A stretch of 64,000 nucleotides of DNA from Paracoccus seriniphilus (GTDB lineage Bacteria; Pseudomonadota; Alphaproteobacteria; Rhodobacterales; Rhodobacteraceae): assembly GCF_028553745.1 (NCBI RefSeq), contig NZ_CP067132.1, positions 248,001-312,000 on the forward strand, in the 5' to 3' direction. Position 1 is the stretch's first letter. Each line of letters starts with the position of its first letter. The translations under genes and the position numbers were made by a program. The notes under the pieces are model-generated. The model was not told the DNA's origin. It ran no database searches and saw nothing but the letters and a program-made list of their open reading frames with translations. Below, piece by piece: positions 1,305-26,011 of the stretch.

Positions 1305-1709
1305 TCAGGCGAGAAGGCTCGGGATGATGGCCATGTCCCGAAACGAGACATAGCTGTTTAGTCCCGGCATTTGGTGGATCGGATTTCGGGTTAAACGATC
1401 AGGCTCTGAGGTCCAGATCTTGCAGATGTATTCGTAGGGCGTAAGGCCGCTGAGGGTCTTGAGTCTGCGGCCGAAATTGTAGGCTGCCAGGAAGTCCGCA
1501 AGACGGGTGCGGAGTTGGTCGTGGTTGTCGTAATGGAACCGCTTGACGGTCGCCTCCTTGATCGTGCGGTTCATCCGCTCGACCTGGCCATTCCTCCACG
1601 GGTGCTTCACCTAGGTCAGTCTGTGCTCGATCTCATGCTCCCGGCAGACGCGGTCAAAGATGTGTTCGAAAGCATTCGTATCGCGGCTTCGATTTGCGAA
1701 TTGCACGCC
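1305..1709 (-). pseudogene. IS481-family transposase, 3' half (broken)
   Basis: Read on the minus strand this starts GVQFANRSRD and continues through NGQVERMNRTIKEAT, the C-terminal part of an IS481-type DDE integrase including the catalytic Glu region. A TAG at about 1611-1613 replaces the Lys codon expected in the motif LT(K)xKHPW. The N-terminal half is at 3338-3624, separated by an IS110 element inserted exactly between the Asn and Gly codons of the TDNG motif. The gene is therefore dead several times over (see the 5' part). Confidence 0.85.
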
Positions 1710-1739
1710 GTAGCACGTCGGGAAGAAGCGCTGTTTTAA

Positions 1740-1842
1740 GGTTATGGCCACGCGCGTAGCCCCCAAATAGCGCAGCGTGTGGCCATAACCGGTCTCAGGT
1801 CTCAACAGTGGTTTTGCAGAACCACACCGCTGAGGAGACCGG
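1740..1842 (+). other. Structured left non-coding region of IS110 copy 1
   Basis: Two strong stem-loops precede the transposase. Arms GGTTATGGCCAC (1740-1751) and GTGGCCATAACC (1779-1790) pair. CCGGTCTC (1789-1796) then pairs with GAGACCGG (1835-1842), enclosing an inner GTGGTT/AACCAC hairpin (1808-1825). The outer 3' arm covers the ribosome binding site, so it could damp translation. It is also one of two places where an IS110 bridge RNA could be encoded. Confidence 0.55.
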
Positions 1843-1844
1843 CT

Positions 1845-3101
1845 ATGCCCGCCAACCATTCTACTGCTGCGACTGTGCTTGTCGCCATCGACATTTCCAA
1901 GCACCGCCACGAGGTCTTGATCGAGGTACCGGGCAAGAAGCGCCGTCGTCGCATGACGATCATGAACACGTTGGAAGACTTCCAGCGCTTGTCCGCGAGC
2001 CTGGCCAGCTACGGCCTGCCTGTGCGGGTCGGGTTCGAGGCGACCGGCAACTATCACAGGCCACTGGCACATCATCTCGGGCAGGCCGGGTTTGACTTGA
2101 AGCTCATCCCTTCTGTCGGGCTCGCCCGGACGCGCGAGGCCCTGCACAACAGTTGGGACAAGAACGACCCGAAGGATGCCCAGGTCATCCTGCACATGCT
2201 GGAGATTGGCGCCGTGCAGTTCTTTCATGATCCGCTGGTCGTCGGGACCGCCGACATCCAGGAATTGTCAAAGACGCACGAGATCGTTTCACGCTCGAAG
2301 ACCGAGCTCTGGCACCGCATCCTGACCCATTACCTGCCGCTCTATTTCCCAGAGGCCGAACGGTTTCACCGAAGCTCACGAACCGATTGGTTCCTGGCCT
2401 TCCTCGAGAAGTATCCGACACCGACGATGATCACGGCCATGAGCCAGGAAACCTTCATCGCAGACGCTTGGCAGGTGGTGGGCAGGAAGGTCGCCAAGGA
2501 GCGCCTGCTTTCAGATATTTACGCTACGGCGGTCAACTCTGTTGGATTGCCCGTGGAACCGGATTCCGACGCCGTTCGCATGTTCCGCCTGGTCCTTTCC
2601 GAAGGTAGAAGCCTCGTCCGCCAGCGCAACGAGATCGAGGCCCGGGCGGTCGCGCTGCTCTCCGATCTGCCGGATTATCAGCTACTGACAACCATCCCCG
2701 GCATTGGTCCGATCAATGCCATGACCATCTTGGCCGAGGCCGGTGACCTACGCCGATTTCGGCATCATCGGCAGTTCCTGAAGTTCTGCGGCATGGATCT
2801 TGCCACCGTGCAGTCCGGCATGTTTCGCGGGCAGAGCCGGATCTCGAAGTACGGCAATGCCCGGCTGCGCCGCACGCTATGGATGGCCGGCCAGACGGCG
2901 GTCCAGACAAAGACCAACAGCTTTCGGGACAAGTTCGAACGCTACATCTCGAAAGACCGACACAACGCTCATCTGCGCCGCAAGGCCTACACCGCGATCG
3001 CGGCCAAGATGGCGCGCACCGTACACGCTGTGGTCAATCACGGCGAACCCTATCGCCCCTTCTTCGAGGGGGTGAGCCCAGGCGGAAGGACCTCTCTCTG
3101 A
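1845..3101 (+). CDS. IS110-family transposase (DEDD), copy 1
   Basis: 418 residues. The N-terminal RuvC-like DEDD domain has D16 (VAIDISK), E65 (GFEATGNY) and D108/D111 (NDPKDA). The C-terminal Transposase_20 domain has IPGIGPINAMTI and SRISKYGNARLRR with the conserved serine. The ATG at 1845 follows GAGGAGA at a normal distance; the frame is open further upstream but those residues look non-coding. IS110 enzymes move through a bridge RNA that pairs with donor and target. The protein appears identical to the copy at 8978-10234 and looks intact. Confidence 0.92.
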   Translation: MPANHSTAATVLVAIDISKHRHEVLIEVPGKKRRRRMTIMNTLEDFQRLSASLASYGLPVRVGFEATGNYHRPLAHHLGQAGFDLKLIPSVGLARTREALHNSWDKNDPKDAQVILHMLEIGAVQFFHDPLVVGTADIQELSKTHEIVSRSKTELWHRILTHYLPLYFPEAERFHRSSRTDWFLAFLEKYPTPTMITAMSQETFIADAWQVVGRKVAKERLLSDIYATAVNSVGLPVEPDSDAVRMFRLVLSEGRSLVRQRNEIEARAVALLSDLPDYQLLTTIPGIGPINAMTILAEAGDLRRFRHHRQFLKFCGMDLATVQSGMFRGQSRISKYGNARLRRTLWMAGQTAVQTKTNSFRDKFERYISKDRHNAHLRRKAYTAIAAKMARTVHAVVNHGEPYRPFFEGVSPGGRTSL

Positions 3102-3238
3102 CTGAGCCGTGGAGGCAGTCAATCTGACCTCGTAGATAATGTTCGGGCCTTCTGCTTGGGATTTGGGATCTCGTATTAAGGACGGTGAGGGCCGCCAGCG
3201 CGCGTACCCTGTGTTTGCTATGGATGAGATCATTTCTT

Positions 3239-3315
3239 GACGGCAGAGCCCGTCTGGGCAACCTTATCAGGGTATCCGGACAGCCGGATGCCACACGACC
3301 TGCTGACCTAAGCAG
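3239..3315 (+). other. Structured right non-coding region of IS110 copy 1
   Basis: Within the 236-bp 3' non-coding tail there are three short hairpins in a row: GACGG/CCGTC (3239-3254), ATCCGG/CCGGAT with a 4-base loop (3274-3289), and CTGC/GCAG (3300-3315). A long structured 3' end is where IS1111-type elements keep their bridge RNA. The identical sequence is at 6266-6482 on the other strand in copy 2. No guide loop was assigned. Confidence 0.5.
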
Positions 3316-3337
3316 CCAGATTTTCCTGACATAGGAC

Positions 3338-3624
3338 GTTGTCGGTCAGCACCCCGTGCAGGCGGTAGGGGACAGCCGCATCAGGTCACACAAGAACTGG
3401 GCTGCCGCCATCTTCCCTGCCTTCTTGACAAGCAGGGCGAAAGCGAACCTGCCTGTCCGGTCAATGCCGACGAACAGATAGAGCTTTCCTTCCGCCGTCT
3501 GCACTTCTGCGATGTCGATATGAAAGTAGCCGATAGGATAACGTTTGAAGCGCTTTCGCTTTGGTTTGTCGCCGTCAACATCGGGCAGCCGTGAAATCTC
3601 ATGCCGTTGCAGGCCGCGGCAGAT
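3338..3624 (-). pseudogene. IS481-family transposase, 5' part (truncated, frameshifted)
   Basis: The minus strand encodes ...HEISRLPDVDG, YFHIDIAEVQ and LYLFVGIDRTGRFAFA, the start of an IS481 DDE domain including the first catalytic Asp. It runs to PYRLHGVLTDN at 3338. A one-base frameshift lies near 3365-3375, because the first frame ends in TACTGC-stop instead of PYRLHG. The N-terminal helix-turn-helix is missing: at about 3625 the sequence switches to a fragment of IS21 istA. The other half is at 1305-1709. Confidence 0.8.
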
Positions 3625-3668
3625 GCCACCTCCTCCTCCTTGGACCAGGAGGCCGCGTATCGCCGGAC
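3625..3668 (-). mobile_element. Fragment of an IS21 istA gene
   Basis: About 44 bp closely match 8497-8543 in the complete istA. Translation of the minus strand gives RRYAASWSKEEEVASAAA against [18 protein letters not shown] in the intact gene. The small differences show it came from a related but different IS21 copy. It joins the IS481 remnant on one side and a palindromic element on the other, so it is rearrangement debris. Confidence 0.7.
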
Positions 3669-3742
3669 TGAACCGCGCCGGGTTTGCCGGATACTCCAAC
3701 TCATGAGTAGGATGGAGCATCCGGCAAACCCGGCGCGGTTCA
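3669..3742. repeat. 74-bp miniature palindromic element
   Basis: A perfect 24-bp inverted repeat (3669-3692 and 3719-3742, outer bases TGAACC...GGTTCA) encloses a 26-base spacer. Outer TGA/TCA bases and the GC-rich arms resemble IS3-family termini, so it may be a deletion derivative with two ends and no gene (MITE-like). No clear target duplication is visible. Confidence 0.7.
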
Positions 3743-3795
3743 AGCCGAATGGCGGCTACGGCCAAGGAGTTCCCCAATTTTACCGAATGAAGTTG

Positions 3796-3904
3796 AAGTT
3801 TTTTCTTCGTGCCGCGAGCACTTAGCCAATCTCCGTGTCGAGGGACGAAAACAAGGAGGACCATACCGAAGCGCAGACAGGCTTGACGCTGCCACGAATG
3901 GCAG
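3796..3904 (+). promoter_or_regulatory. Shared leader motif (copy A) plus hairpin
   Basis: A T-run followed by CTTCGTGCCGCGAG and TAGCCAATCTCC (3796-3840). Very similar sequence stands at 37696-37742 and 33826-33870, with looser versions at 4425, 34436 and, on the minus strand, 16166-16208. Downstream, CTGCC (3889-3893) and GGCAG (3900-3904) form a hairpin just ahead of the ribosome site. The same hairpin is at 37804-37819. Probably a promoter/operator shared by the transposon's small genes. Confidence 0.55.
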
Positions 3905-3929
3905 ACGCGCAACAAACAGGAGGACCACC

Positions 3930-4343
3930 ATGCTGCGCAAGTTTCCCACGAATACCCTGTCCGCAGATCCGCAACTCGACGCCGTGCGCGCACATTTCGA
4001 CAAACACGGTGCCGCCCTGTGCAATGCCGCCGGGCTGATCAACGGCGAGGCCGGGACGGCTCGCGTCCTACGCCTCATGTCCGGGCTCCGCGAAGCCTCG
4101 CGCCTGGACCGAGCCGCCCGGCGCAAGCTGGTCGAGCTGCACCGGCTCCTGTCCCTCGATCCGTTTGGCGATGATCTCGAACCGGATTTGTCGTCCTGGC
4201 CTCTACTCGATCCTGCCAGCCCCGTCGTGGAAGAGATATGCCTACTCACCGACCGGCTCTATGACCTTCTGGTCGAGATCGGAGAACTGGATGACGAGCA
4301 GAAGGCGCTGGCACTCGCCCACGGGGTGCAGGACGCCGCTTAA
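3930..4343 (+). CDS. Tn7-associated small accessory protein (type 1), older element
   Basis: 137 residues, not recognised as a named family. It aligns along its whole length with the product at 37845-38258: shared blocks are DPQL.AVRAHF, RVLRLMS.LR.ASRLDR, LVELHRLLSLDP, VEEICLLTD and LHDLLVEIGE or close variants. It is acidic and likely helical, with no signal peptide or membrane segment. An AGGAGGACC ribosome site precedes the ATG. Presence in two tandem Tn7-like elements with a conserved leader suggests a transposon-related role (regulation, target choice or defence); none is demonstrated. Confidence 0.7.
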   Translation: MLRKFPTNTLSADPQLDAVRAHFDKHGAALCNAAGLINGEAGTARVLRLMSGLREASRLDRAARRKLVELHRLLSLDPFGDDLEPDLSSWPLLDPASPVVEEICLLTDRLYDLLVEIGELDDEQKALALAHGVQDAA

Positions 4344-4424
4344 AACGCCATGCCGGTCGTGCGGTGTGCGCATGGCCGGCGGCATGCTCTTGGATAGACG
4401 CAAAGAAAAAATTGCGGCCCCGCC

Positions 4425-4468
4425 AGATTTCTTCTTCGTCTCTCAAAAGAACGACCAATGTTCTCATC
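4425..4468 (+). promoter_or_regulatory. Shared leader motif (copy D)
   Basis: TTTCTTCTTCG, a spacer, then GACCAATGTTCTC, about 140 bp upstream of the 116-residue gene. It most resembles copy E at 34436-34478 (TTTCTTCTTC...GACCAATGTCCTTC) ahead of tnsA. The surrounding 265-bp gap (4344-4608) shows nothing else I can support. Confidence 0.45.
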
Positions 4469-4608
4469 ACCAGCACCCAAGACCAGCTTTTGAAACCAAC
4501 CAGTAGGAGCCCGCCGAAACCCAAGCATCTCCCGCGAAGCAAGGAACATGACGCCGCAGAATAGGCGCACCGGCACCGTTTCCGCCACCGCATGAAAGGG
4601 AGAACATC

Positions 4609-4959
4609 ATGCTCAACACCACCAACCTCCACGCCGCCGAGGCGCGTCTCAGCGCAGCCTACGCCGCAGAACAGCATCTGCGCCGCCATGGTGCAAGTCT
4701 GTGCGACCTGCTCGATGCTCTGGATGATCCCAGCGGCTTCGCGGCACTCTGTGACCTGCATGGCGCCTACGGGCAGCCGATCCCAGATACGGATGCCGTC
4801 GAGACTGCGCTGCGCGACATCCAACGCATCCTGGCCGAGCAGACGCCGTCATCGCTCGACCGGATCGGTCATGAGCGGCGTCTTCCCGCGTCGGACATGG
4901 CGCGGTGGCACGGCGCGCGCGTCAGCGAGCTTCTCGCGCGGTTCCGCCATGCCCAATAA
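4609..4959 (+). CDS. Small accessory protein of older Tn7-like element (type 2)
   Basis: 116 residues, family not recognised. Alanine/leucine-rich and helical, with HAAEARLSAAYAAEQHLRRHG at the N-terminus and a charged tail; no membrane segment. GAAAGGGAGA lies 7-8 bases before the ATG. Its end overlaps the next gene by 11 bp, so the two are translationally coupled. A gene of similar size and composition (38326-38763) sits at the corresponding end of the newer element, but I see only weak similarity. Confidence 0.6.
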   Translation: MLNTTNLHAAEARLSAAYAAEQHLRRHGASLCDLLDALDDPSGFAALCDLHGAYGQPIPDTDAVETALRDIQRILAEQTPSSLDRIGHERRLPASDMARWHGARVSELLARFRHAQ

Positions 4960-5350
4960 GGCCGTCGGCACACGCTGTGCCCTTCAGGTGGCGCGTAAGC
5001 GCCGCCTGAGCGTCAATCCTGACGCGTTCGCGGTAGAGCAGGACATCTGCGACGTGACGCTCTGGCTCTCCGAGAAGCACAACTTGTCTCGGGTCCACGT
5101 ATGGGTAGACCGGCACTATACACAGGCCGGTCAAGAGATCGCAGGTGTTACCGTGATAAACTCACCGAGCCTCCCCGCGCACCTGACCGAGGAAGCACAC
5201 GAGGCCTTCCTCGCGCTTGGTTACAAGGTCGAAGATACGGGGGCTGACATATACGCCTATGGATTCTGTCACGGCAATCATTCGAGGCACGAGGCCATCC
5301 AAGCTTACGCGCGCATCGAGAACGCGCTGCGACTCTGGCGAGCACCTTAG
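4949..5350 (+). CDS. Tn7-associated small accessory protein (type 3), older element
   Basis: 133 residues starting at ATG 4949 inside the previous gene. It is a clear paralogue of the product at 33908-34324, with shared VEQDICDVTLWL, H-x-WV-RH, AHEAF.ALGY.VE, GAD.YAY and H-S-R-HEA-QAY-RI blocks. An N-terminal basic stretch (KRRLS) precedes the conserved core. The conserved His, Asp and Tyr residues could be functional, but I recognise no family. The copy in the newer element lies immediately upstream of tnsA, so this one probably once preceded the lost tnsAB genes. Confidence 0.7.
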   Translation: MPNKAVGTRCALQVARKRRLSVNPDAFAVEQDICDVTLWLSEKHNLSRVHVWVDRHYTQAGQEIAGVTVINSPSLPAHLTEEAHEAFLALGYKVEDTGADIYAYGFCHGNHSRHEAIQAYARIENALRLWRAP

Positions 5351-5450
5351 GAAAATCATAAGCTCCTCGAAAAGGGCGGCGGTAATCCCCCCCGATCTTA
5401 GGGGGATGCGGAAGTAGAATTTTCTCGGCAGGATGAACGAGGAGATACCG

Positions 5451-5714
5451 ATGAAGAAGACACGTTTCACAGAAGCCCAGATCATGGGCGTGCTGCGCCA
5501 GATGGAAGGCGGCGTTCCTGCTGCCGAGTTGTGCCGTGAACATGGCATGAGCAGTGCCACGCTTTACAAATGGCGGGCCAAATATGGCGGTATGGATGCG
5601 AGCCTGATCAGCGAGATGAAGGCGATGGCCGAGGAGAACCGCCGCCTGAAGCGTATGTTCGCTGATGTCAGCATGCAAAACGACCTGCTGAAGGAGGCGC
5701 TCGGAAAAAAATGA
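5451..5714 (+). CDS. IS3-family OrfA (helix-turn-helix)
   Basis: 87 residues, [20 protein letters not shown] followed by [23 protein letters not shown], the usual IS3 OrfA helix-turn-helix, then a leucine-rich coiled tail. The ATG at 5451 follows GGAGAT; an in-frame ATG at 5433 is possible. It ends in an A-run (5705-5711) overlapping orfB by 4 bp, the normal site for a -1 ribosomal frameshift producing OrfAB. Confidence 0.88.
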
Positions 5715-6265
5715 AGCGGCCAGCTCAACGCCGAGAGTTGGCCGTGAAAGCGGTGGCGATGAAGGGCGTCAGCATCGCACTGGCGTGCCGGGCATTTGAT
5801 GTCAGCGAGACCTGCTACCGATACAGCCCGAAGCTGGACGATGAGAACGAGCAGATCGCCGACCTGCTGCTTGGGCTGACGAAGGCGAAGAAGACCTGGG
5901 GCTTTGGCCTGTGCTTTCTCTACCTGCGCAATGTCCAGGGCCATGGCTGGAACCACAAGCGGGTCTACCGGATCTACCGCGAGCTGGAGCTGAACCTCAG
6001 GATCAAGCCGCGCAAACGGCTGAAACGGGAGAAGCCCGACGAGTTGGCCGTGCCAGAACAGCCGAACGAAGTCTGGTCCATGGCCTTCATGGCAGATCGC
6101 CTCGGGGACGGACGCCAGTTCCGGCTGCTGAATGTCCTGGACGACTTCAACCGTGAAGGGCTGGGTATCGAGGTCGACTTCTCGCTACCCGCGGAACGCG
6201 TCGTCAGGGCGCTGAACCAGATCATCGAATGGCGTGGTGCGCCTCGAACCATACGAGTCGACAAC
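5711..6265 (+). pseudogene. IS3-family OrfB, 5' half (split by IS110 copy 2)
   Basis: Encodes the N-terminal 185 residues of the DDE transposase up to RTIRVDN. The next codon should be Gly; instead the IS110 element starts at 6266. The remainder, GPEYISGTLMEW onward, resumes in frame at 10370. Removing the insertion restores a 275-residue protein, so this gene was intact when hit. W-S-MAFMAD near 6080 carries the first catalytic Asp region. Confidence 0.9.
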
Positions 6266-6619
6266 GTCCTATGTCAGGAAAATCTGGCTGCTTAGGTCAG
6301 CAGGTCGTGTGGCATCCGGCTGTCCGGATACCCTGATAAGGTTGCCCAGACGGGCTCTGCCGTCAAGAAATGATCTCATCCATAGCAAACACAGGGTACG
6401 CGCGCTGGCGGCCCTCACCGTCCTTAATACGAGATCCCAAATCCCAAGCAGAAGGCCCGAACATTATCTACGAGGTCAGATTGACTGCCTGTCAATCGGC
6501 AGGCAATCTTGACCCCCTATCGGCGTTCAAAAATGACCCCCATGGAGCGCACGGGTAGCTGGCCCGATGCGGTGTAGCCCCCATACAGCGCAGCCGTATC
6601 GGGCCAGCGTGGCCGTCGG

Positions 6620-7348
6620 TCATTCTCGGGTCTTGAAGCGCCAGCTCTCGTTGCCGGTTTCGACGATGTCGCAGTGATGGGTCAGCCGGTCGAGCAGCGC
6701 CGTGGTCATCTTCGCGTCGCCAAAGACCGAAGGCCATTCCCCGAAGTCGAGATTGGTCGTCACGATGATCGAGGTGCGTTCGTAGAGGCGGCTGATGAGA
6801 TGGAACAGTAGCTGGCCGCCGGTCTGCGCGAAGGGGAGATAGCCGAGCTCATCGAGGATCAGGAAGTCGAGGCGGCAGAGCAGGTCTGCCGTGCGCCCCT
6901 GTCGATCGGCACGGGCTTCGGCATCGAGCTTGTTTACCAGGTCTACGACATTGAAGAAGCGCCCCCGCTTGCCGCGCCGGATGCAGGCCCGGGCGATGCT
7001 GACGGCCAGGTGCGATTTACCAGTCCCGGTGCCGCCGATGAGGACGACATTGCGCTGCTGTTCGAGGAACTCTCCGGCGGCCAGATCGCGTACCAGCGTC
7101 TCGTTGACCGGCGTTTCCTCGAAGCTGAACTCGTCGACCTCTTTCGCCAGCGGCAACTTGGCGATCGTCATCTGATATTTGATCGAGCGCGCCTGCTTCT
7201 CGCTGATCTCGGCATTCAGCAGGTCGCCGACGATCTGTTGCGGCTCGTGCTGGCGCTTCACCGCCGTGGTGATGATCTCATCGTAGGCGGCCTTCATGCC
7301 GTAAAGCTTCAGCTGGCTCATCGCGTCCAGCACTTGTGATCTTTCCAT
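6620..7348 (-). CDS. istB: IS21-family helper ATPase IstB
   Basis: 242 residues, DnaA/DnaC-like AAA+ ATPase that activates IstA and helps choose the target. Walker A is GGTGTGKSH and Walker B is [13 protein letters not shown]. The N-terminal [16 protein letters not shown] is the usual IstB helical domain. It overlaps the 3' end of istA by 71 bp, as expected for coupled translation. Intact. Confidence 0.93.
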
Positions 7349-8846
7349 GGTTGGGTCTCCTGAGACTGTCGTAGCGTTTGCAATCGGCGACGGGCTCGCA
7401 GGTCAGTCGCAACGCGGCCGGCGTATCGATGGTCAGTGGCGGTGGCGGCTCCCGATGCCGTGCAAGGATGTTGATGACGACCGAGGCCGCAGGGACCCCT
7501 TCGCTCAGGGCCTCGGCACAGGCAGCATCCACCGCATCCAGCCCATCGATCGGGATCATGCTCAGGATCTGGACCATCTGCCGGTCGCCGTTCGGCACCT
7601 TGCCAAGCTTGCGCTGCACGCGCCTGATCGCCGGCGGCAGGTCCCAGCCCTTGAAGGGGGCCCCATTCCGGAGGGCGCCGGGCTTGCGAGCCAGAACCGG
7701 AATGTAGTGCAACGGGTCGTAGATGGCCTTGTCGCGCCCGAAGGCTCGGGCGTGCTGCCCCACGATCTTGCCGTCCTGCCAGAACTCGACCCGCTCGGCA
7801 TAGGCACGGATCTCGACAGGTCGGCCAACGGCCCGGCCGTTCACGGAGTAGCGGTTCTTGTCGAACCGGACGAGACAGGTCTTCGAGACCGAGGCTGGCA
7901 CGGCATGGAAGCCGTCGAACGGACCGACGTAGGGGACAAGACTCGTGCGCTCGTCCTGGAATACCTCCCAGATCGTTCGATCCCGAAGCTCCTGGTGCGG
8001 GTTGGCTTTGGCCCAGGCAACACAGCGATCCTCGAGCCAGGCGTTGAGTTCGGCGTAGCTCTTGAACTTCGGCCGAGGCACGAAGAACCGCCGCCGGACA
8101 ACGCCGACCTGGTTCTCGACCTGTCCCTTCTCCCAGCCGGATGCCGGGGTGCAAGCGACGGGATCGACGAGGTAATGGCTGCACATCTGCTGGAACCGGC
8201 GGTTGTAGGCGCGGTCGCGGCCGACGAAGATCGTGTCGACCGCGGTCTTCATGTTGTCGTAGATGCCCCGTGTGCAGGTGCCCCCGAAGAAGGCGAACGC
8301 CTTGTCATGGGCGTCGAAGACCATCTCCTGCGTCTCGCGGGGATAGGCACGCACGAACAGCATCCGGCTGTGACACAGGCGGACATGTGCCACCTTCACT
8401 GTGGTCGTCGCGCCATCGATCACTACGATCTCATGGCTCCAGTCGAACTGGTAGGCTTCCCCCGGATCGAAGCTCAGCGGCACATAGGCCGCGGCGGATG
8501 CCACCACCTCCTCCTTGGACCAGGTTGCCGCGTATCGCCGGACCGCATCATAGCCGCCATCATATCCTCGGGCCCGGAGTTCCTCGAAGATGCGGATGCG
8601 GGTCAGTCGCTCGCGCTTGGGCTTCCGCGCGTTCACCGACAGCATCTCGTCGAGCAAGTCTTTCCAAGGTCCGATCTTCGGCAACGGCTGAATGGTTCGC
8701 TCGTAGGTGAGCTCCGTTGCACCTGATCGGATCACCTTGCGCACCGTGTTCCGCGACACCCGCAGTTCACGGCAGATCTGCTTGATCGACTTCTTGTCCT
8801 GAAAATACGCCCGCCGGATCTTCGCTATCGTCTCCACGACCAACAT
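7278..8846 (-). CDS. istA: IS21-family transposase IstA
   Basis: 522 residues. An N-terminal helix-turn-helix ([21 protein letters not shown], residues ~19-39) is followed by the DDE core: first Asp in [10 protein letters not shown], second in GIYDNMK, Glu in KGQVEN. A C-terminal end-binding domain follows. Length is usual for the family (about 500). The ATG at 8846 is about 110 bp inside the element's right end. A fragment of a related istA lies at 3625-3668. Confidence 0.93.
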
Positions 8847-8977
8847 CCCACACTGTGCTCCCCGATGACCTCGGGGGCATCATCCACATCAGTGTAAGGG
8901 GGTCATTTTTGGACGCCGATCACCCCTCTACGGGGTCAAAATTGCACGCCGGTTCACAGACTGCCTCCACGGCTCAG

Positions 8978-10234
8978 TCAGAGAGAGGTCCTTCCGCCTG
9001 GGCTCACCCCCTCGAAGAAGGGGCGATAGGGTTCGCCGTGATTGACCACAGCGTGTACGGTGCGCGCCATCTTGGCCGCGATCGCGGTGTAGGCCTTGCG
9101 GCGCAGATGAGCGTTGTGTCGGTCTTTCGAGATGTAGCGTTCGAACTTGTCCCGAAAGCTGTTGGTCTTTGTCTGGACCGCCGTCTGGCCGGCCATCCAT
9201 AGCGTGCGGCGCAGCCGGGCATTGCCGTACTTCGAGATCCGGCTCTGCCCGCGAAACATGCCGGACTGCACGGTGGCAAGATCCATGCCGCAGAACTTCA
9301 GGAACTGCCGATGATGCCGAAATCGGCGTAGGTCACCGGCCTCGGCCAAGATGGTCATGGCATTGATCGGACCAATGCCGGGGATGGTTGTCAGTAGCTG
9401 ATAATCCGGCAGATCGGAGAGCAGCGCGACCGCCCGGGCCTCGATCTCGTTGCGCTGGCGGACGAGGCTTCTACCTTCGGAAAGGACCAGGCGGAACATG
9501 CGAACGGCGTCGGAATCCGGTTCCACGGGCAATCCAACAGAGTTGACCGCCGTAGCGTAAATATCTGAAAGCAGGCGCTCCTTGGCGACCTTCCTGCCCA
9601 CCACCTGCCAAGCGTCTGCGATGAAGGTTTCCTGGCTCATGGCCGTGATCATCGTCGGTGTCGGATACTTCTCGAGGAAGGCCAGGAACCAATCGGTTCG
9701 TGAGCTTCGGTGAAACCGTTCGGCCTCTGGGAAATAGAGCGGCAGGTAATGGGTCAGGATGCGGTGCCAGAGCTCGGTCTTCGAGCGTGAAACGATCTCG
9801 TGCGTCTTTGACAATTCCTGGATGTCGGCGGTCCCGACGACCAGCGGATCATGAAAGAACTGCACGGCGCCAATCTCCAGCATGTGCAGGATGACCTGGG
9901 CATCCTTCGGGTCGTTCTTGTCCCAACTGTTGTGCAGGGCCTCGCGCGTCCGGGCGAGCCCGACAGAAGGGATGAGCTTCAAGTCAAACCCGGCCTGCCC
10001 GAGATGATGTGCCAGTGGCCTGTGATAGTTGCCGGTCGCCTCGAACCCGACCCGCACAGGCAGGCCGTAGCTGGCCAGGCTCGCGGACAAGCGCTGGAAG
10101 TCTTCCAACGTGTTCATGATCGTCATGCGACGACGGCGCTTCTTGCCCGGTACCTCGATCAAGACCTCGTGGCGGTGCTTGGAAATGTCGATGGCGACAA
10201 GCACAGTCGCAGCAGTAGAATGGTTGGCGGGCAT
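8978..10234 (-). CDS. IS110-family transposase (DEDD), copy 2
   Basis: 418 residues, apparently identical to the product of 1845-3101, with DEDD residues D16, E65, D108 and D111 and the C-terminal KYGNARLRR region. The gene is undisturbed: the IS21 insertion lies 12 bp past its stop, in the 3' non-coding tail. That could separate the enzyme from any bridge RNA encoded there. Confidence 0.92.
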   Translation of the reverse strand: MPANHSTAATVLVAIDISKHRHEVLIEVPGKKRRRRMTIMNTLEDFQRLSASLASYGLPVRVGFEATGNYHRPLAHHLGQAGFDLKLIPSVGLARTREALHNSWDKNDPKDAQVILHMLEIGAVQFFHDPLVVGTADIQELSKTHEIVSRSKTELWHRILTHYLPLYFPEAERFHRSSRTDWFLAFLEKYPTPTMITAMSQETFIADAWQVVGRKVAKERLLSDIYATAVNSVGLPVEPDSDAVRMFRLVLSEGRSLVRQRNEIEARAVALLSDLPDYQLLTTIPGIGPINAMTILAEAGDLRRFRHHRQFLKFCGMDLATVQSGMFRGQSRISKYGNARLRRTLWMAGQTAVQTKTNSFRDKFERYISKDRHNAHLRRKAYTAIAAKMARTVHAVVNHGEPYRPFFEGVSPGGRTSL

Positions 10235-10369
10235 AGCCGGTCTCCTCAGCGGTGTGGTTCTGCAAAACCACTGTTGAGACCTGAGACCGGTTATGGCCAC
10301 ACGCTGCGCTATTTGGGGGCTACGCGCGTGGCCATAACCTTAAAACAGCGCTTCTTCCCGACGTGCTAC

Positions 10370-10642
10370 GGCCCAGAATACATCAGCGGCACCCTCATGG
10401 AATGGGCCGAAAACAAGGGCATCTCCTTGGCCCACATACAGCCGGGGAAACCGCAGCAGAACGCTTATGTCGAGCGCTACAACCGGACGGTCCGGCACGA
10501 ATGGCTGGACCTCCACATCTTCGAAAGCATCGACGAGGTGCAGCAGATTGCCACCGAATGGCTCTGGTCCTACAACAATGAACGCCCGAACATGGGCAAC
10601 GGCGGGATGACACCCGCACAGAAACTGAGAATGGCCGCGTAA
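10370..10642 (+). pseudogene. IS3-family OrfB, 3' half
   Basis: Continues OrfB from GPEYISGT through NAYVERYNRTVRHEW, which carries the catalytic Glu, to TPAQKLRMAA. In frame with 5711-6265 if the IS110 insertion is removed. It has no start of its own. The IS3 right inverted end follows at 10641-10681. Confidence 0.9.
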
Positions 10643-10681
10643 ATTCTACGACCAAGCCCCCGTAAAAACGGGGGGATTACC

Positions 10682-10797: not shown

Positions 10798-12621
10798 ATG
10801 CTGCTACCCTTCTTGCCGTTCGACCCCAATGAGACGCCGTTATCCTATGCCGCGCGCTTGGCTCACTATCATGCCGACAAACCGATAGTTCCATTTCTGA
10901 GGGATCTGCAGATCCGACCGGAGGCGATCGCGTCGTCCGAGCCGGACGCTCTCGCAAGGCTGGCGGAGACTTCTGGTGCGCCACTGAACGATCTGCGCCG
11001 GAATGCTGCAGTTCGCCAGGGCAAACGGACATATGATCTTCGTGGTGAGCCGGTCACCGCCGAGTTCCTGTCGAACCCGTACACTGTATTCTGCCCTGCC
11101 TGCCTGGCAGAGGATGATATGACTGGACGACGCCGTGGACGTTGGCACTGGGCCCTTTCGATCGTGCGGACATGCCCGCATCACGAGATCGCTCTGGTTC
11201 GCCAGGCGCAGGCCGCATGGGATGACAAGCTTCACGAGCTTGACCGCCGGGTGCCCGAGCGCGGCAGTGAACTCCAGGCCATGATCGAAAGGGCAGTGCG
11301 CCGCTCAGTTTCGCCCCTGCAAGGCTATGTGCAGCGACGCCTCGAAGGAATTGCGGGCCCAGATTGGCTGGATGCCCAGACCCTTGATCAGGCGACCCGC
11401 GCGACAGAACTCCTGGGAGTTTTGGTCGTCTACGGGCGGACCCAGAAGCTCCCGGAGCTCACCTCTGATGACTGGGATCATGCCGGTCGCGTTGGCTTCC
11501 AGTTCACGTCGCGCGGCGAAGAAGGCATTCGGGAGGCGCTCGAAACGCAGTTGCGGAAATTCGACGAGGCCACTGGAAACGCTGGACCACGCAAGATCTT
11601 CGGGTGCTTCTACAACGCCCTCGCGCACTCGAAATCACTCAAAGAACCTGGCGACATCGCGCGCATTCTTCGCGACGTCATTACCGAGAACATCGTAATG
11701 CCGGCTGGGACGAAGGTGCTGGGCGTCGAATTTCCCGAGCGCCAGTTGCACACGGTCGCATCCCTGGCCAAGGAGCAATCCCTCGACTCGCGGACCCTGA
11801 GTAACGTGCTGGTTGCCGCGGGGGCGATCCCGGAGAATGCACCGGCACATTTCGCGATCCCGGCAGATCTGGGTCGTGAAATCGCGGGACGCATGAAGCG
11901 CACGGTGAACGTGATCTCGCTGTGGAAAGACATGAATTGTACTCGCCCGCTCGTCGATCAGCTTTTTGCTGATCGGCTTCTCACTCCCATTTACTACGGG
12001 AGGCCGAGCGCGAGAGGGCGTGCCCAAAAAGCCGTGGATCGCGACGAGATTGCCGTGCTGGTTGGCAAGCTCCATGCGAAGGCGGCTGAACTGGATGCCG
12101 AAACCGACGGGTTGGTGCCGGTCTCGAAAGCTGCGGAGAAGGCAAAGGTGCCGGCCGTTGCTGTGGTGCATATGATACTGGGAGGTTTCCTCGGTCGTGT
12201 ATTTCGCTTGGCTGGTCAGGGCGGGATAGGCGCGCTTCGGGTCGACTCTACGGAGGTCGAGCGGCACGCGGCTGCCTTCGGCGTAGGTCTTTCACCGATG
12301 GCGGCCTTCGGCGCGCTGAAAATCCCGAGGGATGTTGGTTGGCGCCTGGTCGATCGGCATCCGCAGGAGGTGAGTTTGACCGTCGACTGGATCGCTGGAT
12401 CCGACGACAGCCACCGGATTCCACGGTTCGATCCGGCGGACGTCGGCGACTTCAAGGCTCGGTTCACCCATCCTGCACGGATCGCCGAGACTCATGGCCT
12501 TCAGGTGGGGGAGGTTGTCGGCCGCCTAAAGCGTCGGGGCATTCGTCCCATCTTGACCAGGGCCAAGATCGGCGTGGACTTCTACCGGACCAACGATCTG
12601 GAGCCGGATCTGTTCACTTAA
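10798..12621 (+). CDS. tniQ: TniQ/TnsD-family target-site protein, older element
   Basis: 607 residues. The N-terminal TniQ domain has a zinc site formed by C99, C102 (FCPACL) and C126, H129 (RTCPHH). A long C-terminal region with repeated helix-turn-helix-like segments follows, as in TnsD proteins that bind a chromosomal attachment site. It is homologous over the full length to the product of 13071-14909. Both elements sit at the same site, so both probably recognise the nrdJ 3' end. The gene is intact although its transposase partners are gone; it might act in trans with the newer element's TnsABC. Confidence 0.88.
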   Translation: MLLPFLPFDPNETPLSYAARLAHYHADKPIVPFLRDLQIRPEAIASSEPDALARLAETSGAPLNDLRRNAAVRQGKRTYDLRGEPVTAEFLSNPYTVFCPACLAEDDMTGRRRGRWHWALSIVRTCPHHEIALVRQAQAAWDDKLHELDRRVPERGSELQAMIERAVRRSVSPLQGYVQRRLEGIAGPDWLDAQTLDQATRATELLGVLVVYGRTQKLPELTSDDWDHAGRVGFQFTSRGEEGIREALETQLRKFDEATGNAGPRKIFGCFYNALAHSKSLKEPGDIARILRDVITENIVMPAGTKVLGVEFPERQLHTVASLAKEQSLDSRTLSNVLVAAGAIPENAPAHFAIPADLGREIAGRMKRTVNVISLWKDMNCTRPLVDQLFADRLLTPIYYGRPSARGRAQKAVDRDEIAVLVGKLHAKAAELDAETDGLVPVSKAAEKAKVPAVAVVHMILGGFLGRVFRLAGQGGIGALRVDSTEVERHAAAFGVGLSPMAAFGALKIPRDVGWRLVDRHPQEVSLTVDWIAGSDDSHRIPRFDPADVGDFKARFTHPARIAETHGLQVGEVVGRLKRRGIRPILTRAKIGVDFYRTNDLEPDLFT

Positions 12622-13070: not shown

Positions 13071-14909
13071 CTACACGCGGAAGCGATCCGGCAGATCGCT
13101 TCGTCGAAAGATCCGTACGCCGATGTCGGACTTTAGCAAAAAGGGCTTCGCTCCAGCCGCCTTCATCACCGGCTTCAGGTCTCGAACGCCCATCCCCAAT
13201 GCGGCACCGATATGCACTTCCGTCGTAAATTCGGAAAGAAACGCATCGACGACTTCAGGCTCAAACCGATGGATGACGTGTTCTCCATCTTCGGACCGGA
13301 TTTCACATGCCCGTAGAAGCCCCCGCCGAACCAGTTCCCAGCCGGATGCAACGGGAATACCCATCCGGATGAATGCCTCCGAAGGCGACAAGCCGCCCAT
13401 GACGTCAGAAACGACCGCCTTGGCTTCGATCGGATCCAAGTGGATTGCGTCACATCCGTCAAAACCAACGGCTCGTACCACCTTCTGAAGGTGCCCTCCC
13501 AAGATGAGATGCACGATCTCGACCGCAGGAGCGTTCGACTTCATGGCTGCTTTCGCGAGATCGACCATGCCGCCTGGGATTTTCTCGACCGGCTTCGTGA
13601 AAGCGGTGATCCGACGAAGCAGCTCCTCGGCCTCCTTTTCATCGACAGCCTTTTTCTTGCGACCCGGAGCATCCGAGACCTCGTCGACGATCGGCGTCAA
13701 AATCCGTTCGGCAACGAGTTGTTCTGCGAGAGGACGCGTGCAGCCGAGCAGTTTCGGCAGCCCCGAAATCGGAACAAGTCGACGCACGGTCTGCGAGACT
13801 TCGCGACCGAGATCGGCGTCAAAGACGTAGTTGGCGTCTCGAGCCGCATTCAATGGGATAACCGCCTTAGCTTCCAGCACATTTCGAAGCGTGCGTGGGT
13901 CGAGACCGCTCTCTTTTGCGAGAGTGGCGCAAGTATGAAGCCGACGCTCAGCAAGTGTCTTGCCGAGCACAGTCTTGCCCGCCGGCATTTCGATGTTTTC
14001 GACGATGTAGTCACGGAGGATCCGCTTGATGTCTCCGGGCTCCTTCTTGGCTCGGGACCGCGAAAGCCACTGGTACAGGCGGCCGAAGACCGCCTGAGGG
14101 CCAAGCTTGCCGCCCTTTCGGTTGGCGCGCGCGTGAATATCGGCCAGGACGCGACGGATACCGTCTTCGCCTTGGGCAGTGATGGCGTAGCCCGCGGCAC
14201 CTGCCCGATCCCAATCGTCCTCCGTGAGGTTGTCGAGGTTCGGCCTCGCACCGAACAAAACAAGCGCACCAAGCATTTCGCTTGCACGAACAGCTTGCTC
14301 GAGGCCTTCGCTGTCGAGCCAGGCGGGGCCGGTCTCTCCTTCGAGGCGCGCGAGGGTATAATTCTGAAGAGGCGATACGGAGCGAGGCTGAAGCTGGCCG
14401 ATCATGTCTGCGAGGCGCTCGCCCGTTTCCGGGACAATGACTCCAAGCTCGTGAAAACGGTCGCCCGAGAAATCCGCCTTTCGACGCATGAGGGGAAGAC
14501 CGTGGCTTGGGCAGGTCCGAACGACAGCCAGTTGCCAGATCCACTGGTGACGCCGTTCACCGGTCTGGCCGCCGGATGCCTGATCATCCTCCAGCAGGCA
14601 CGCCGGACAGAATACCGTATAAGGTGACGCCAGAAATTCCGCTGACACGTGCTCTCCGCGTAGGTCATAATGCCGTCGATCCAAACCCCGAGGGGCGTTG
14701 GCGAAGAGCGCATCTGGCGAGACGCCAGTCCAATCTGCCAGCCGATGTACGGCATCAGAATCCCCGCGCGCAAGCTCCGGAGGCTTTATGCCATTGTCGC
14801 TAAGGAAAGAGCCCGTTCGACCGCCGATGTGGAAGGCTGCCAGGCGTGCTACGAAGCCCATTACGGATTCGGCCGGATCATGGGCGATGTGAGGTGAGAG
14901 CATTGCCAT
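13071..14909 (-). CDS. tniQ: TniQ/TnsD-family target-site protein, newer element
   Basis: 612 residues. The TniQ domain includes zinc ligands C101, C104 (FCPACL) and C133, H136 (RTCPSHG), and a long C-terminal DNA-binding region has repeated winged-helix-like segments. TnsD-type TniQ proteins recruit TnsC to one chromosomal site. The insertion just past nrdJ implies it reads that gene's 3' end. ATGs at 14915, 14909 and 14903 are all possible; GAGG is 9 bases ahead of 14909. It follows tnsC by 11 bp on the same transcript. Confidence 0.88.
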   Translation of the reverse strand: MAMLSPHIAHDPAESVMGFVARLAAFHIGGRTGSFLSDNGIKPPELARGDSDAVHRLADWTGVSPDALFANAPRGLDRRHYDLRGEHVSAEFLASPYTVFCPACLLEDDQASGGQTGERRHQWIWQLAVVRTCPSHGLPLMRRKADFSGDRFHELGVIVPETGERLADMIGQLQPRSVSPLQNYTLARLEGETGPAWLDSEGLEQAVRASEMLGALVLFGARPNLDNLTEDDWDRAGAAGYAITAQGEDGIRRVLADIHARANRKGGKLGPQAVFGRLYQWLSRSRAKKEPGDIKRILRDYIVENIEMPAGKTVLGKTLAERRLHTCATLAKESGLDPRTLRNVLEAKAVIPLNAARDANYVFDADLGREVSQTVRRLVPISGLPKLLGCTRPLAEQLVAERILTPIVDEVSDAPGRKKKAVDEKEAEELLRRITAFTKPVEKIPGGMVDLAKAAMKSNAPAVEIVHLILGGHLQKVVRAVGFDGCDAIHLDPIEAKAVVSDVMGGLSPSEAFIRMGIPVASGWELVRRGLLRACEIRSEDGEHVIHRFEPEVVDAFLSEFTTEVHIGAALGMGVRDLKPVMKAAGAKPFLLKSDIGVRIFRRSDLPDRFRV

Positions 14910-14920
14910 GAACATGAACC

Positions 14921-15862
14921 TCACGCGGCTTCGTGGAGTTTGGTGAGGTCGATTTGGGCCCACCGTGGAGACAGGAAAACGTTCTTGCCGGGCATGACGC
15001 CCTCCTGCATCGCCCACGAATGCGCGAAATGCTGCGCCGTAAGCTGCCCATCGCCCTTCCGGAGGGCCGTTTCGATTGCGGCAATGATGTTCTCGATGCA
15101 GCGACCGAACCGGGAGCGGCTCGCATAGACAAGCCGATGGATGATATCCGACCCGGCATCCGGAACGAGACCCGCGTCTTTGCAGAACTTTTCCATAATA
15201 CCCCGCAGCATCTTTTCGTGAGTGCTCGCAGAGATTGTGGGCAGCGTGACCTTGGAATAGCGCCTTTTGACCTGATCGTCGTAGGATGCGATGTTCCACA
15301 GGGAGTCGATGCCAGTCAGAATGACAATCACCGCGCCCTCCCCTTGCATCACCGATTTCAGCATCTTCAGGATGTCTTCGATCGCCTTCCCGGCCCTGAA
15401 CAGGTCATGGGCCTCGTCGATCCAGAGTACGGCCGTCCCCAGTTGCTGCATGCGGAAACGGACAAGTCGCCAGATGTCCCACTCCTTGCGTTTTGAAGAA
15501 ACCTCTGGGTACCCGGTAGCCCGAAGTATCTCGAGGCCCAGGCTTTTTAGGGTCGCGGGACTTGGTACGCGGACCCCGATCCACGGCTTGTGGCCAGGCT
15601 CTTCGCTCTGCAACGCGGGATGGGTCTTTAGGAAGTGATGCACCAGCGAAGTTTTCCCGCCGCCAGGACCTTCGACGAGCACGATCCCGTGGGTTTCACC
15701 GGTTGAGGTAAACGTCACTGGCTTGGCCATAGGCTGACCCTTTGCGTCGTGCTGCAGCAGCAGCTCGAAGTGTTCCTGGAGAATTTTGTCACGAGCCGTC
15801 TCGATATAGTTTGCGCGCAGTTCCGCACTGACCCGGAACGGATCGGTTCCACGTTTGTCCAT
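14921..15862 (-). CDS. tnsC: TnsC/TniB-family AAA+ transposition regulator
   Basis: 313 residues. Walker A is GPGGGKT (65-71) and Walker B is VLWIDEAHD (D149/E150), followed by an AAA lid. TnsC links the TniQ-marked target to the TnsAB transposase and gives target immunity. The ATG at 15862 is preceded by CGGAGA at 7 bases; an upstream in-frame start would add an N-terminus lacking similarity. Unusually, no tnsB lies upstream; tnsA-tnsB are 19 kb away and divergent. The C-terminus matches the remnant at 10682-10795. Confidence 0.9.
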   Translation of the reverse strand: MDKRGTDPFRVSAELRANYIETARDKILQEHFELLLQHDAKGQPMAKPVTFTSTGETHGIVLVEGPGGGKTSLVHHFLKTHPALQSEEPGHKPWIGVRVPSPATLKSLGLEILRATGYPEVSSKRKEWDIWRLVRFRMQQLGTAVLWIDEAHDLFRAGKAIEDILKMLKSVMQGEGAVIVILTGIDSLWNIASYDDQVKRRYSKVTLPTISASTHEKMLRGIMEKFCKDAGLVPDAGSDIIHRLVYASRSRFGRCIENIIAAIETALRKGDGQLTAQHFAHSWAMQEGVMPGKNVFLSPRWAQIDLTKLHEAA

Positions 15863-16488
15863 GTTGTTCTCCGAAATTTGAAGGTTGCTGACAGCCGACG
15901 TCCGTCTTTCTGCAGCGCACACCGGTCTGTGCTCCGAAAGTGCGTTCATCGGAATTTCAACAGAAATTGTTTGACGACGCGTAGCGACCTGAGACCAGCA
16001 TTCTTGCTCATGCCAGGGGCGCGGGGGCCCGTCAGCCTCCAAAGGATGTTGTGCTTCGGGTCTGAGGTACCGTCTTGTGATAGACGGTCACCGCGTGGCG
16101 GCGAGTTACGCGTCCCCGCGCGGTCGTGTCTGAATTCTCATGACAATTCTCCTCTATCGTCGCACCCAAGAGGTTGGCCAACTTGTGTGGAAAGGAAGAA
16201 GATTTCACATGAAATCCGAACGGATGAATGCGAGGCGGTTTATCGCGGCGCCTCGAGCTTTGTCCGGTTACTCGCGACAGCCTACAGCGCAGGCACTCGC
16301 AGATAGCAACCTAACCCATTCACGAAGCCCGACGAGATCAAGCACTCTCGGCTCGACGGGAGAACTGGCCCCCAAGTACACCATGGTGATGGTTCGCCGC
16401 CCCCCCCAATACCAGGCCATGTCCGGCCCCGCTGAACAGCGTCGCGTTTCAGAATGACAAGCTATTCGGCACCGCTTATCGTGCGATC
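15863..16488 (-). promoter_or_regulatory. tnsC leader with shared motif (copy F, 16166-16208)
   Basis: A 626-bp stretch with no convincing gene. On the minus strand at 16166-16208 it holds ATCTTCTTCCTTTCC, a spacer and TTGGCCAACCTCTT, matching the motif ahead of the accessory genes and tnsA. This places a common control element ahead of both halves of the transposition machinery. A short frame at 16140-16457 lacks coding character. A run of nine C residues lies near 16400-16409. Confidence 0.45.
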
Positions 16489-22469: not shown

Positions 22470-22598
22470 CCTGCCCCCCGCGAAATCCCTCACCGTGATG
22501 TAGAGTCTGCGCCAACTCTGAAGGAGCAGACAGATGCTGATCTGATCCCCGCAAACTGGGCTCCGGTCGCGGCTGGATGAAAGTTCAGTGGCAGGTCA
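22467..22598. mobile_element. IS3-family remnant (ends only)
   Basis: 132 bp between perfect 9-bp inverted ends TGACCTGCC and GGCAGGTCA. It contains a GAAGGAGCAGACAGATG start region like an IS3 orfA ribosome site and ATG, then jumps straight to the right-end sequence; the genes are deleted. Its last 61 bp (22538-22598) are repeated exactly at 33658-33718. The rest of the gap to hsdR (22599-22693) shows nothing else. Confidence 0.65.
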
Positions 22599-22693
22599 TG
22601 CTCTGGCCCTTGTTTGCGCGATTTTCGGCAAGCCAGCGCTTGTGTGTTGCGGTCGATCCGGTAGGTTGTTCAGATACTTGCGGGAAGGTTGGA

Positions 22694-25159: not shown

Positions 25160-26008
25160 ATGAGGACTATTGGAAAATCCAAGTTGCTGAATATTCCGGC
25201 GCAAGGGGGAATTCCCGTCGAGCAAACAAACGATCAGATTAGAAAATCAAAACCCACTCCTGTCCAAAATTACTTAGACTTAGCCAACAAAATCGCAGAA
25301 GTTCAATATCTAAACCCAGAACACGTTCTGGTTTTTCGTGGCCAGTCCGCTGATCACACAGACGAAAATCACATGACTTCAATTAGGCCAGGAATATTTC
25401 GTGGGCACGATTCTACGGTTACCAGGTCGCCGATTGCAGCTCGATTCGAGAAGCTCAAAAGGGCAGAAAAGCTGTTGATTGAAAAATGGTTGGATGCGCC
25501 GATTGCCGGAAATGAAAAGATAAGAAAATATCGAATTCTACGATGGTCAATTTTACAGCACTACGAGATCTGCGAGACACCATTACTCGACGTTACCTAC
25601 TCACTCCGCGTAGCGGCTTCGTTCGCGTCGTTGCACGACGATAGTCACGGATATGTCTTTGCCCTTGGGGTCCCGAACATCTCCGGAACGGTGACAACTG
25701 ATATGGAAGCCGGTCTTCAGACAGTTCGACTTTCGAGTGTTTGCCCGCCCCAAGCGCGCCGGCCACATATCCAGGAAGGTTATCTGTTGGGAGAGTATCC
25801 AGATATCAGTGTCTATGCCGAAAAGCAAAACTACTCGTCCTTTGAGGTCGACTTCGGCCGACGATTGTTGGCCAAGTTCGAGTTTGTCAAAAAAGCATTT
25901 TGGAACCGCAACACATTTCCTCAAATCTCGCAGCAAGCACTCTATCCCAACAGAGAAGACACCTTTAAGGACGTAGCAAAACAGATTATAATCGAACTGG
26001 GTGAATAA
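25160..26008 (+). CDS. FRG domain-containing protein
   Basis: 282 residues. The FRG signature is visible: VFRGQSAD near 57-64, then RWSILQHYEICETPLLDVT with the H-x-G/E-x-x-TPLLD pattern, and SLRVAASFA. FRG proteins are widespread in mobile and defence regions, and their biochemical role is not well settled. It sits between hsdR and hsdM with no gap on the left and 3 bp on the right. Notably lower GC than hsdM, which suggests later insertion into the hsd operon. Confidence 0.85.
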   Translation: MRTIGKSKLLNIPAQGGIPVEQTNDQIRKSKPTPVQNYLDLANKIAEVQYLNPEHVLVFRGQSADHTDENHMTSIRPGIFRGHDSTVTRSPIAARFEKLKRAEKLLIEKWLDAPIAGNEKIRKYRILRWSILQHYEICETPLLDVTYSLRVAASFASLHDDSHGYVFALGVPNISGTVTTDMEAGLQTVRLSSVCPPQARRPHIQEGYLLGEYPDISVYAEKQNYSSFEVDFGRRLLAKFEFVKKAFWNRNTFPQISQQALYPNREDTFKDVAKQIIIELGE

Positions 26009-26011
26009 ACT

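Follow-up and report, generated by a model that had tools for sequence, protein, structure and literature searches.

Two IS110 copies in the active-site codons of other transposases

The 64,000-nt stretch of the Paracoccus seriniphilus genome analysed here (contig NZ_CP067132.1, positions 248,001 to 312,000; hereafter the window, in whose coordinates positions are given unless stated otherwise) carries two copies, A and B, of an insertion sequence (IS) of the IS110 family, each lying inside the transposase gene of a different mobile element. The IS110 copies and the host genes that they split are arranged as follows.

1710–3337, + strand: IS110 copy A, 1628 bp including the left core GT (1710–1711); 7 further full-length copies of the same sequence lie elsewhere in the genome
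3338–3339: right core GT of copy A
1845–3101, + strand: gene for a DEDD recombinase/transposase of 418 amino acids (aa) from ATG (PF01548, E 1.4e-18; PF02371, E 4.9e-27; NF033542, 227.6 bits against a cut-off of 140 bits)
6266–10369, − strand: IS110 copy B, interrupted by IS21
about 6491–8958, − strand: IS21 element inside copy B (istB 6620–7348, istA 7278–8846), with an 8-bp duplication
3338–3900, − strand: N-terminal part of the interrupted IS481 gene, ending ..T-D-N; frameshifted upstream, upper bound approximate, named from its sequence
1305–1709, − strand: C-terminal part of the interrupted IS481 gene, starting G-V-Q-F; in-frame stop at 1611–1613
5381–6265, + strand: N-terminal part of the interrupted IS3 element, ending ..V-D-N
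10370–10681, + strand: C-terminal part of the interrupted IS3 element, starting G-P-E-Y and reaching the right end of the IS3

The 418-aa product (440 aa when the reading frame is started at GTG 1779) carries both domains that mark the IS110 family, a DEDD RuvC-like domain and Transposase_20. The 8-bp duplication beside the IS21 is IS110 sequence (overlap 1405–1412 of the query).

A reading made from the sequence alone had placed both IS110 copies at the DN^G codons of other transposases (^ marks the junction), and the junctions in the IS481 and IS3 genes confirm this. In host sense the IS481 gene reads ...ACCGACAAC^GGCGTGCAA, that is T-D-N^G-V, at 1709/3338, and the IS3 gene reads ...GTCGACAAC^GGCCCAGAA, that is V-D-N^G-P, at 6265/10370: in both genes the IS110 separates the Asn codon that follows the second catalytic Asp from the Gly codon after it (GACAAC^GG in host sense). 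That reading needs one correction, as the IS481 host gene is already decayed, with a frameshift upstream of the site in addition to its in-frame stop. When three host pieces were scanned, both IS3 pieces matched IS3 best and the C-terminal IS481 piece matched IS481 best, with scores that all fall below the whole-protein cut-offs because these are pieces and not whole proteins. The two copies do not represent one duplicated insertion spread by recombination, since the host genes are unrelated, the 10 bp that they share make up the target site, and other genes carry identical copies as well.

Copies in the same genome and in related genomes

The P. seriniphilus genome holds nine IS110 copies, eight of them full-length and identical and one split by IS21. 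They lie in the IS481 gene, in a first IS3 (IS3-1; window copy B and loci L005–L008), in a second IS3 (IS3-2; L003), in an IS3-1/IS3-2 hybrid (L004) and in a TonB-dependent receptor gene (L002), and every site reads GACAAC^GG. DDE transposase genes therefore host 8 of the 9 copies, or 3 of the 4 distinct sites when the hybrid is not counted as one. Of the 18 PF00665 domains above cut-off in this genome, 7 break off precisely at the DN, profile position 74; the uninterrupted DNG motifs seen at the second D read GATAAC (L187, L188) or GACAAT (L204).

To these we added related loci, namely the best 80 of 358 stretches encoding a relative, and 20 plasmid loci chosen across the identity range (64–94% aa identity; Rhodobacterales, Hyphomicrobiales, Sphingomonadales and Rhodospirillales). 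The left end reads AGCA in 56 of the 80 loci and AACA in 21 (3 were not read), and the two groups share the same target. We read 101 right and 104 left junctions, leaving out L009, L011 and L212, the last of which is poor sequence and was dropped from the counts. In frame, D-N ends 92 of 98 readable right sides and a Gly codon starts 104 of 105 left sides (duplicates included). The six right sides without D-N comprise changes of one or two residues (VDY, TDH, LYN, VGY, SHN) and one tandem copy.

Once duplicates and pieces shorter than 20 aa had been removed, 82 N-side and 92 C-side host pieces remained from the 80 + 20 loci and the genome's own copies. Similarity clustering and inspection assigned 77 of the 82 and 88 of the 92 to DDE transposases, with IS3 and IS481 as the dominant host families; we give no exact split between these two because their NCBIfam hits overlap. 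Other DDE families occur as well: the host at L055 is an IS30 on both sides, and that at L151 is a Mu-C/TniA-like transposase according to Pfam and the record annotation (NCBIfam gives a weak IS481 match). Single family matches such as IS66 or DctP we take to be neighbouring genes in the same frame. In both P. seriniphilus and Actibacterium, identical IS110 copies occur in unrelated hosts inside one genome. Collecting other copies and tabulating their host genes thus gave the outcome that the sequence-only reading had predicted: insertion at unrelated sequences is not the rule, and the codon and host counts together support the interpretation that the element targets DDE codons.

In a survey of 295 genomes of the family, 52 had some match to the element and 12 (P. 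seriniphilus included) had a match of at least 1500 bp; at least 5 of these 12 look, by their coordinates, like assemblies already among the 80 loci. Matches in phages were distant, and two relatives came from viral contigs. For three relatives from Bacillota (26–28% aa identity), no DDE gene was seen by eye on the presumed left flank. At L065 (4492–5007), a ribulokinase frame runs into an IS3 remnant a few codons ahead of its VSDN, a fusion that suggests a deletion beside the right end of the IS110.

Target site and core dinucleotides

In IS110 orientation the site reads ..CC-(G/A)T-T(G/A)TC... Base counts at the junctions, which omit L148, L212, L009 and L011, show how closely it is kept. 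At the 90 unique left junctions, C occupies −1 in 90 of 90 and −2 in 89 of 90; the 86 unique right junctions all have GT, followed by T at +3 (83), G (71) or A (15) at +4, T at +5 (85) and C at +6 (84). Insertion is site- and orientation-specific without target duplication beyond the core, as is characteristic of the IS110 family, and in seven comparisons intact homologues align to both flanks (78–94% per flank) with no target bases lost.

Asp codon use at the sites equals that of 44 intact IS3 genes (GAC 71 and GAT 15, against 36 and 8). For Asn, the right junctions read AAC in 86 of 86 cases against AAC 28 and AAT 16 in the intact genes (Fisher 3.4e-9), a result that we withdrew as evidence of codon choice because the donor's core is the better reading of the right GT. 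Read at the left end, the target's own base is G in 55 and A in 35 cases (AAC 55 and AAT 35, against 28 and 16 in the intact genes; p 0.85) and is unbiased. Among the 44 intact DNG genes AAT occurs in 16 and GAT in only 8.

Assigning the right GT to the donor, and to the target the base with which the left end begins, is the best reading but has mixed support. In its favour, two copies in one genome (L076 and L077) differ at 1 of 1631 bases, which is this first base, and all three pairs of intact and interrupted genes with at least 90% identity on both flanks fit (L023, L057, L137). Of all 7 intact/interrupted pairs compared, 5 fit and L021 and L142 do not, and only 10 of 19 C-flank matches of at least 85% agree. 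At L148 (2726 onwards) IS110 copies stand in tandem, with only one GT between the right end of one and the left end of the next, as would be expected at the junction of a circle.

A conserved RNA downstream of the recombinase gene

Two regions of copy A outside the gene stand out for their predicted structure or conservation.

3120–3268, + strand: conserved structured RNA downstream of the gene, a candidate bridge RNA or seekRNA (40 sequences, 17 pairs)
3135–3149, + strand: segment of the downstream RNA (suggestive only)
3179–3185, + strand: candidate left donor guide AGGAC-GG, matching the right end ..AGGAC^G (match by eye)
3216–3221, + strand: candidate right donor guide UGCU-AU, pairing with the left end (G/A)T-AGCA (covariation)
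1740–1841, + strand: two strong hairpins upstream of the gene (−62.7 kcal/mol for 1709–1850, z −5.0; bounds approximate)

About 150 nt after the gene are conserved through the lineage. For 40 of the 94 RNAs that we extracted, pairing across the 17 proposed pairs reaches 95.3%; sequences of the AACA group align poorly and were excluded here. Nine pairs have changed on both sides, against a shuffle mean of 3.0 (0 of 500 shuffles as high; slid controls 0–2), and covariation is seen in three helices, although these statistics lean towards the drawn structure because it was drawn from the same sequences. One proposed pair, columns 29/142, was rejected as it is unpaired in 28 of the 40 sequences. 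Rfam gave no match in window 1600–3450.

Within the inner loop, UG(C/U)U-AU would base-pair with the left end, (G/A)T-A(G/A)CA, and varies with it: C goes with AGCA in 64 cases and U with AACA in 21, with one exception and 4 unparsed (duplicates included). This covariation may reflect a single ancestral switch. On the 5' side, GUAGAUAAUGUU(C/U)(G/A)GG(C/U)C is near-invariant, and AGATAATGT is present in 88 of the 94 RNAs. With U at both third codon positions, GAUAAUG is able to pair through G-U wobble with every C(G/A)TT(G/A)TC, and UUCGGGCC is able to pair with the left half of the site on the other strand, making the block formed by GAUAAUG and UUCGGGCC a suggestive candidate for the target guide. 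A spacing of at most 15 nt between the two candidate target guides arose in 0.3% of 4000 shuffles, in a test chosen after the match had been seen. As to the target guides that the sequence-only reading proposed to look for in a non-coding RNA, there is a block that could pair with the site, while the pairing itself is only suggestive.

The upstream hairpins, between the left end and the gene, occur in relatives too. Possible roles are expression control or participation in a longer RNA.

Proposed mechanism and alternatives

The target, its orientation and its hosts are very probably explained by an RNA-guided IS110-family element of which a circular copy is inserted one way into the short DNA site GA(C/T)-AA(C/T)^GG, and which hence has DDE hosts. 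The RNA-guided DEDD recombinase would insert the circle, in one orientation, at this host-sense sequence, leaving the left core dinucleotide (G/A)T as the target's and bringing the right GT from the donor. In DDE transposases the site encodes the second catalytic Asp, the adjacent Asn and the next Gly, and because DDE chemistry keeps these codons in many IS3, IS481, IS30 and TniA-type transposases, one guide could find sites in many unrelated elements. Insertion splits the DDE gene after the second D, and the third catalytic residue (E) is then encoded by the separate C-terminal piece. The N-terminal host product ends shortly after D-N, as in the window example, where a stop then follows. DNA rather than protein is read, because the unrelated genes for a TonB receptor and a CIA30-like protein are cut at the same DN^G codons. 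The sequences themselves establish the target, the orientation and phase of insertion, the breadth of hosts, the covariation in the downstream RNA and that of the donor guide; the origin of the two cores, the guide role of this RNA and its exact pairing with the site, circular intermediates and the advantage to the element are inferred.

Several observations weigh against RNA-guided targeting of these codons. Host pieces are non-DDE in 5 of 82 cases on the N side (the TonB receptor L002, L031, L065, L140 and the tandem copy L148) and in 4 of 92 on the C side (L002, the CIA30 locus L031, L035 and L148); L002 and L031 are non-DDE on both sides, yet cut at DN^G. RNA guide scans made one side at a time were not significant, as neither target guide alone beats shuffles (left 0.19; right 7-mer 0.12), and in relatives with AACA ends the left guide has an A at a position for which most targets call for G. 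In the P. seriniphilus genome an IS3 gene (L189), whose second D reads SDQG, keeps an intact GACAACGGC downstream of it, outside the active site, so not every motif is occupied. Finally, because insertions in useful genes are lost, the preference is not fully separable from survivorship.

Survivorship is the core of the alternative that fares best, which we nevertheless consider unlikely: the element would need no more than a frequent short sequence (about CC(G/A)TTGTC), and the excess of transposases would reflect the survival of insertions in dispensable, multicopy genes near mobile DNA. L002 and L031, where the element has entered this motif in genes that do not encode transposases, are consistent with this, as is the conservation at −11 to −3, which follows the protein code, extra DNA specificity there not being demonstrated. 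The P. seriniphilus genome contains 181 CCGTTGTC sites, however, and among the 100 listed, all on one contig (C1), none lies inside the PF00665 spans found on C1, yet DDE genes make up 77 of 82 and 88 of 92 host pieces. Moreover, most dispensable genes are not transposases.

We regard it as quite improbable that the protein or the upstream hairpins, and not the downstream RNA, choose the target. Such a role would agree with the strong upstream fold (z −5.0), with the use of an upstream non-coding region by the known system ISEc21 (PMC11187229), and with the constancy of the target in this lineage, because of which no natural retargeting ties RNA to target. Against it stand the strong conservation of the downstream RNA with its three covarying helices and the covariation of the candidate donor guide with the left end.

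That many copies descend from few insertions, carried by the host IS or by recombination between copies, is highly improbable as a general explanation, being contradicted by the identical elements in IS481, two different IS3 and a TonB gene in P. seriniphilus, by the different hosts in Actibacterium and by hosts that vary across dozens of species, although it holds for some copies: IS3-1::IS110 lies at several places with different outer flanks, no IS3-1 C-half without an adjoining IS110 was found in this genome (6 of the 6 C-halves found adjoin one), and L004 is a hybrid of two sites. IS3-1 may have moved with its IS110 passenger or have been hit repeatedly. Of five IS3-1::IS110 copies inspected by eye, L007 alone has matching 3-bp flanks. 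Two opposed IS110 copies about 17 kb apart (L004 and L003; contig C2, 578694 and 597556) have mixed host flanks, which suggests recombination between copies.

RNA-guided insertion at the DDE codons leaves room for a further reading, to which we give tentative credence at less than even odds: the guide may read a protein motif through the genetic code, and, with ISEc21 at the same codons, the DDE active site may be a recurrent, perhaps convergent, safe harbour and the elements that use it a general transposon brake. The near-invariant block spells GAU-AAU-G, the start of Asp-Asn-Gly, and as third-position U pairs with G or A, one RNA could accept all four Asp-Asn spellings and many DDE families. 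A brake on transposons could possibly act through truncated products that keep the DNA-binding part. Both the safe harbour and the suppression of other elements, already put forward from the sequence alone, are consequences that we infer.

Comparison with known systems

Targeting of DDE codons is already known. It was reported in 2024 for ISEc21, whose target was located in IS3-family transposases, at the codon of the second D in DDE and its surroundings (Siddiquee et al. 2024, PMC11187229). As described there, ISEc21 has a 358-aa transposase and a guide region upstream of the gene, and the hosts named are IS3 elements only (PMC11187229). The present element is like ISEc21 in targeting the codon for the second D in DDE transposases, in its probable RNA guidance, in its single orientation and in the lack of target duplication (PMC11187229). 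Unlike ISEc21, it has a 418-aa transposase and a conserved, covarying RNA downstream, though the upstream region folds too; its hosts also include IS481, IS30 and TniA-type elements, and it lives in alphaproteobacteria. It is set apart from ISEc21 by the published description (size, RNA position), not by sequence, and apparently represents a different IS110 branch. It had no DNA match in E. coli genomes; a copy from an E. coli phage, tried as ISEc21, was rejected as it encodes 326 aa against 358.

Subterminal inverted repeats of IS1111 elements are 11–13 bp long, whereas the repeat here is only about 7–9 bp. In other respects the element is like the IS1111 type: the non-coding RNA region lies downstream of the gene, the candidate top-strand match lies 5' of the bottom-strand match as in IS1111 seekRNAs, and there is a subterminal inverted repeat (TCGGGAA-like), although at 418 aa the transposase is unlike the 330–350 aa of the IS1111 subgroup (PMC11187229). 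IS621 has a recombinase with a bispecific RNA carrying target and donor guides, a core dinucleotide and repeated targets (repetitive extragenic palindromes, REP) (Durrant et al. 2024, PMC11208160). Here too there are a recombinase, a candidate RNA with target and donor guides, a core dinucleotide and repeated targets; unlike in IS621, the candidate donor loop is nested in one long hairpin, the candidate target guides lie in the 5' flank of that hairpin, and the target consists of protein-coding active-site codons (PMC11208160).

No literature on IS110 targeting of IS481, IS30 or TniA was found in a search that had most subscription journals and preprints outside its reach. Inteins and homing introns use strongly conserved active-site codons as a perpetual target; in their case splicing restores the host product, while here the host gene is broken.

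Other features of the window

A TniQ domain is present at 10798–12621, and by eye further TniQ/TniB/TniA-like open reading frames occupy 13071–15299 (− strand), 14921–16042 (− strand) and 35267–37504, giving the appearance of a Tn7/Tn5053-like transposon region. The IS3 of the window seems, again by eye, to be inserted in a tniB-like remnant. Open reading frames at 22577–30272 resemble a type I restriction-modification set (HsdR, HsdM and HsdS-like, by eye).

Significance

New in this work are a second, separate-looking lineage (418 aa, downstream RNA) with several DDE host families in four alphaproteobacterial orders and, as a suggestive proposal, the wobble-based guide. A behaviour reported once, as an oddity of ISEc21, becomes the rule throughout a lineage: natural selection maintains an active site in other mobile elements, and a mobile element can exploit it. 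This conserved target provides insertion sites when new hosts are entered and should restrict damage to the cell. As natural bridge-type RNAs, the candidate guides may be tuned for degenerate codon recognition, which would be useful for target-tolerant genome tools, and the lineage offers a testable case of element-on-element parasitism.

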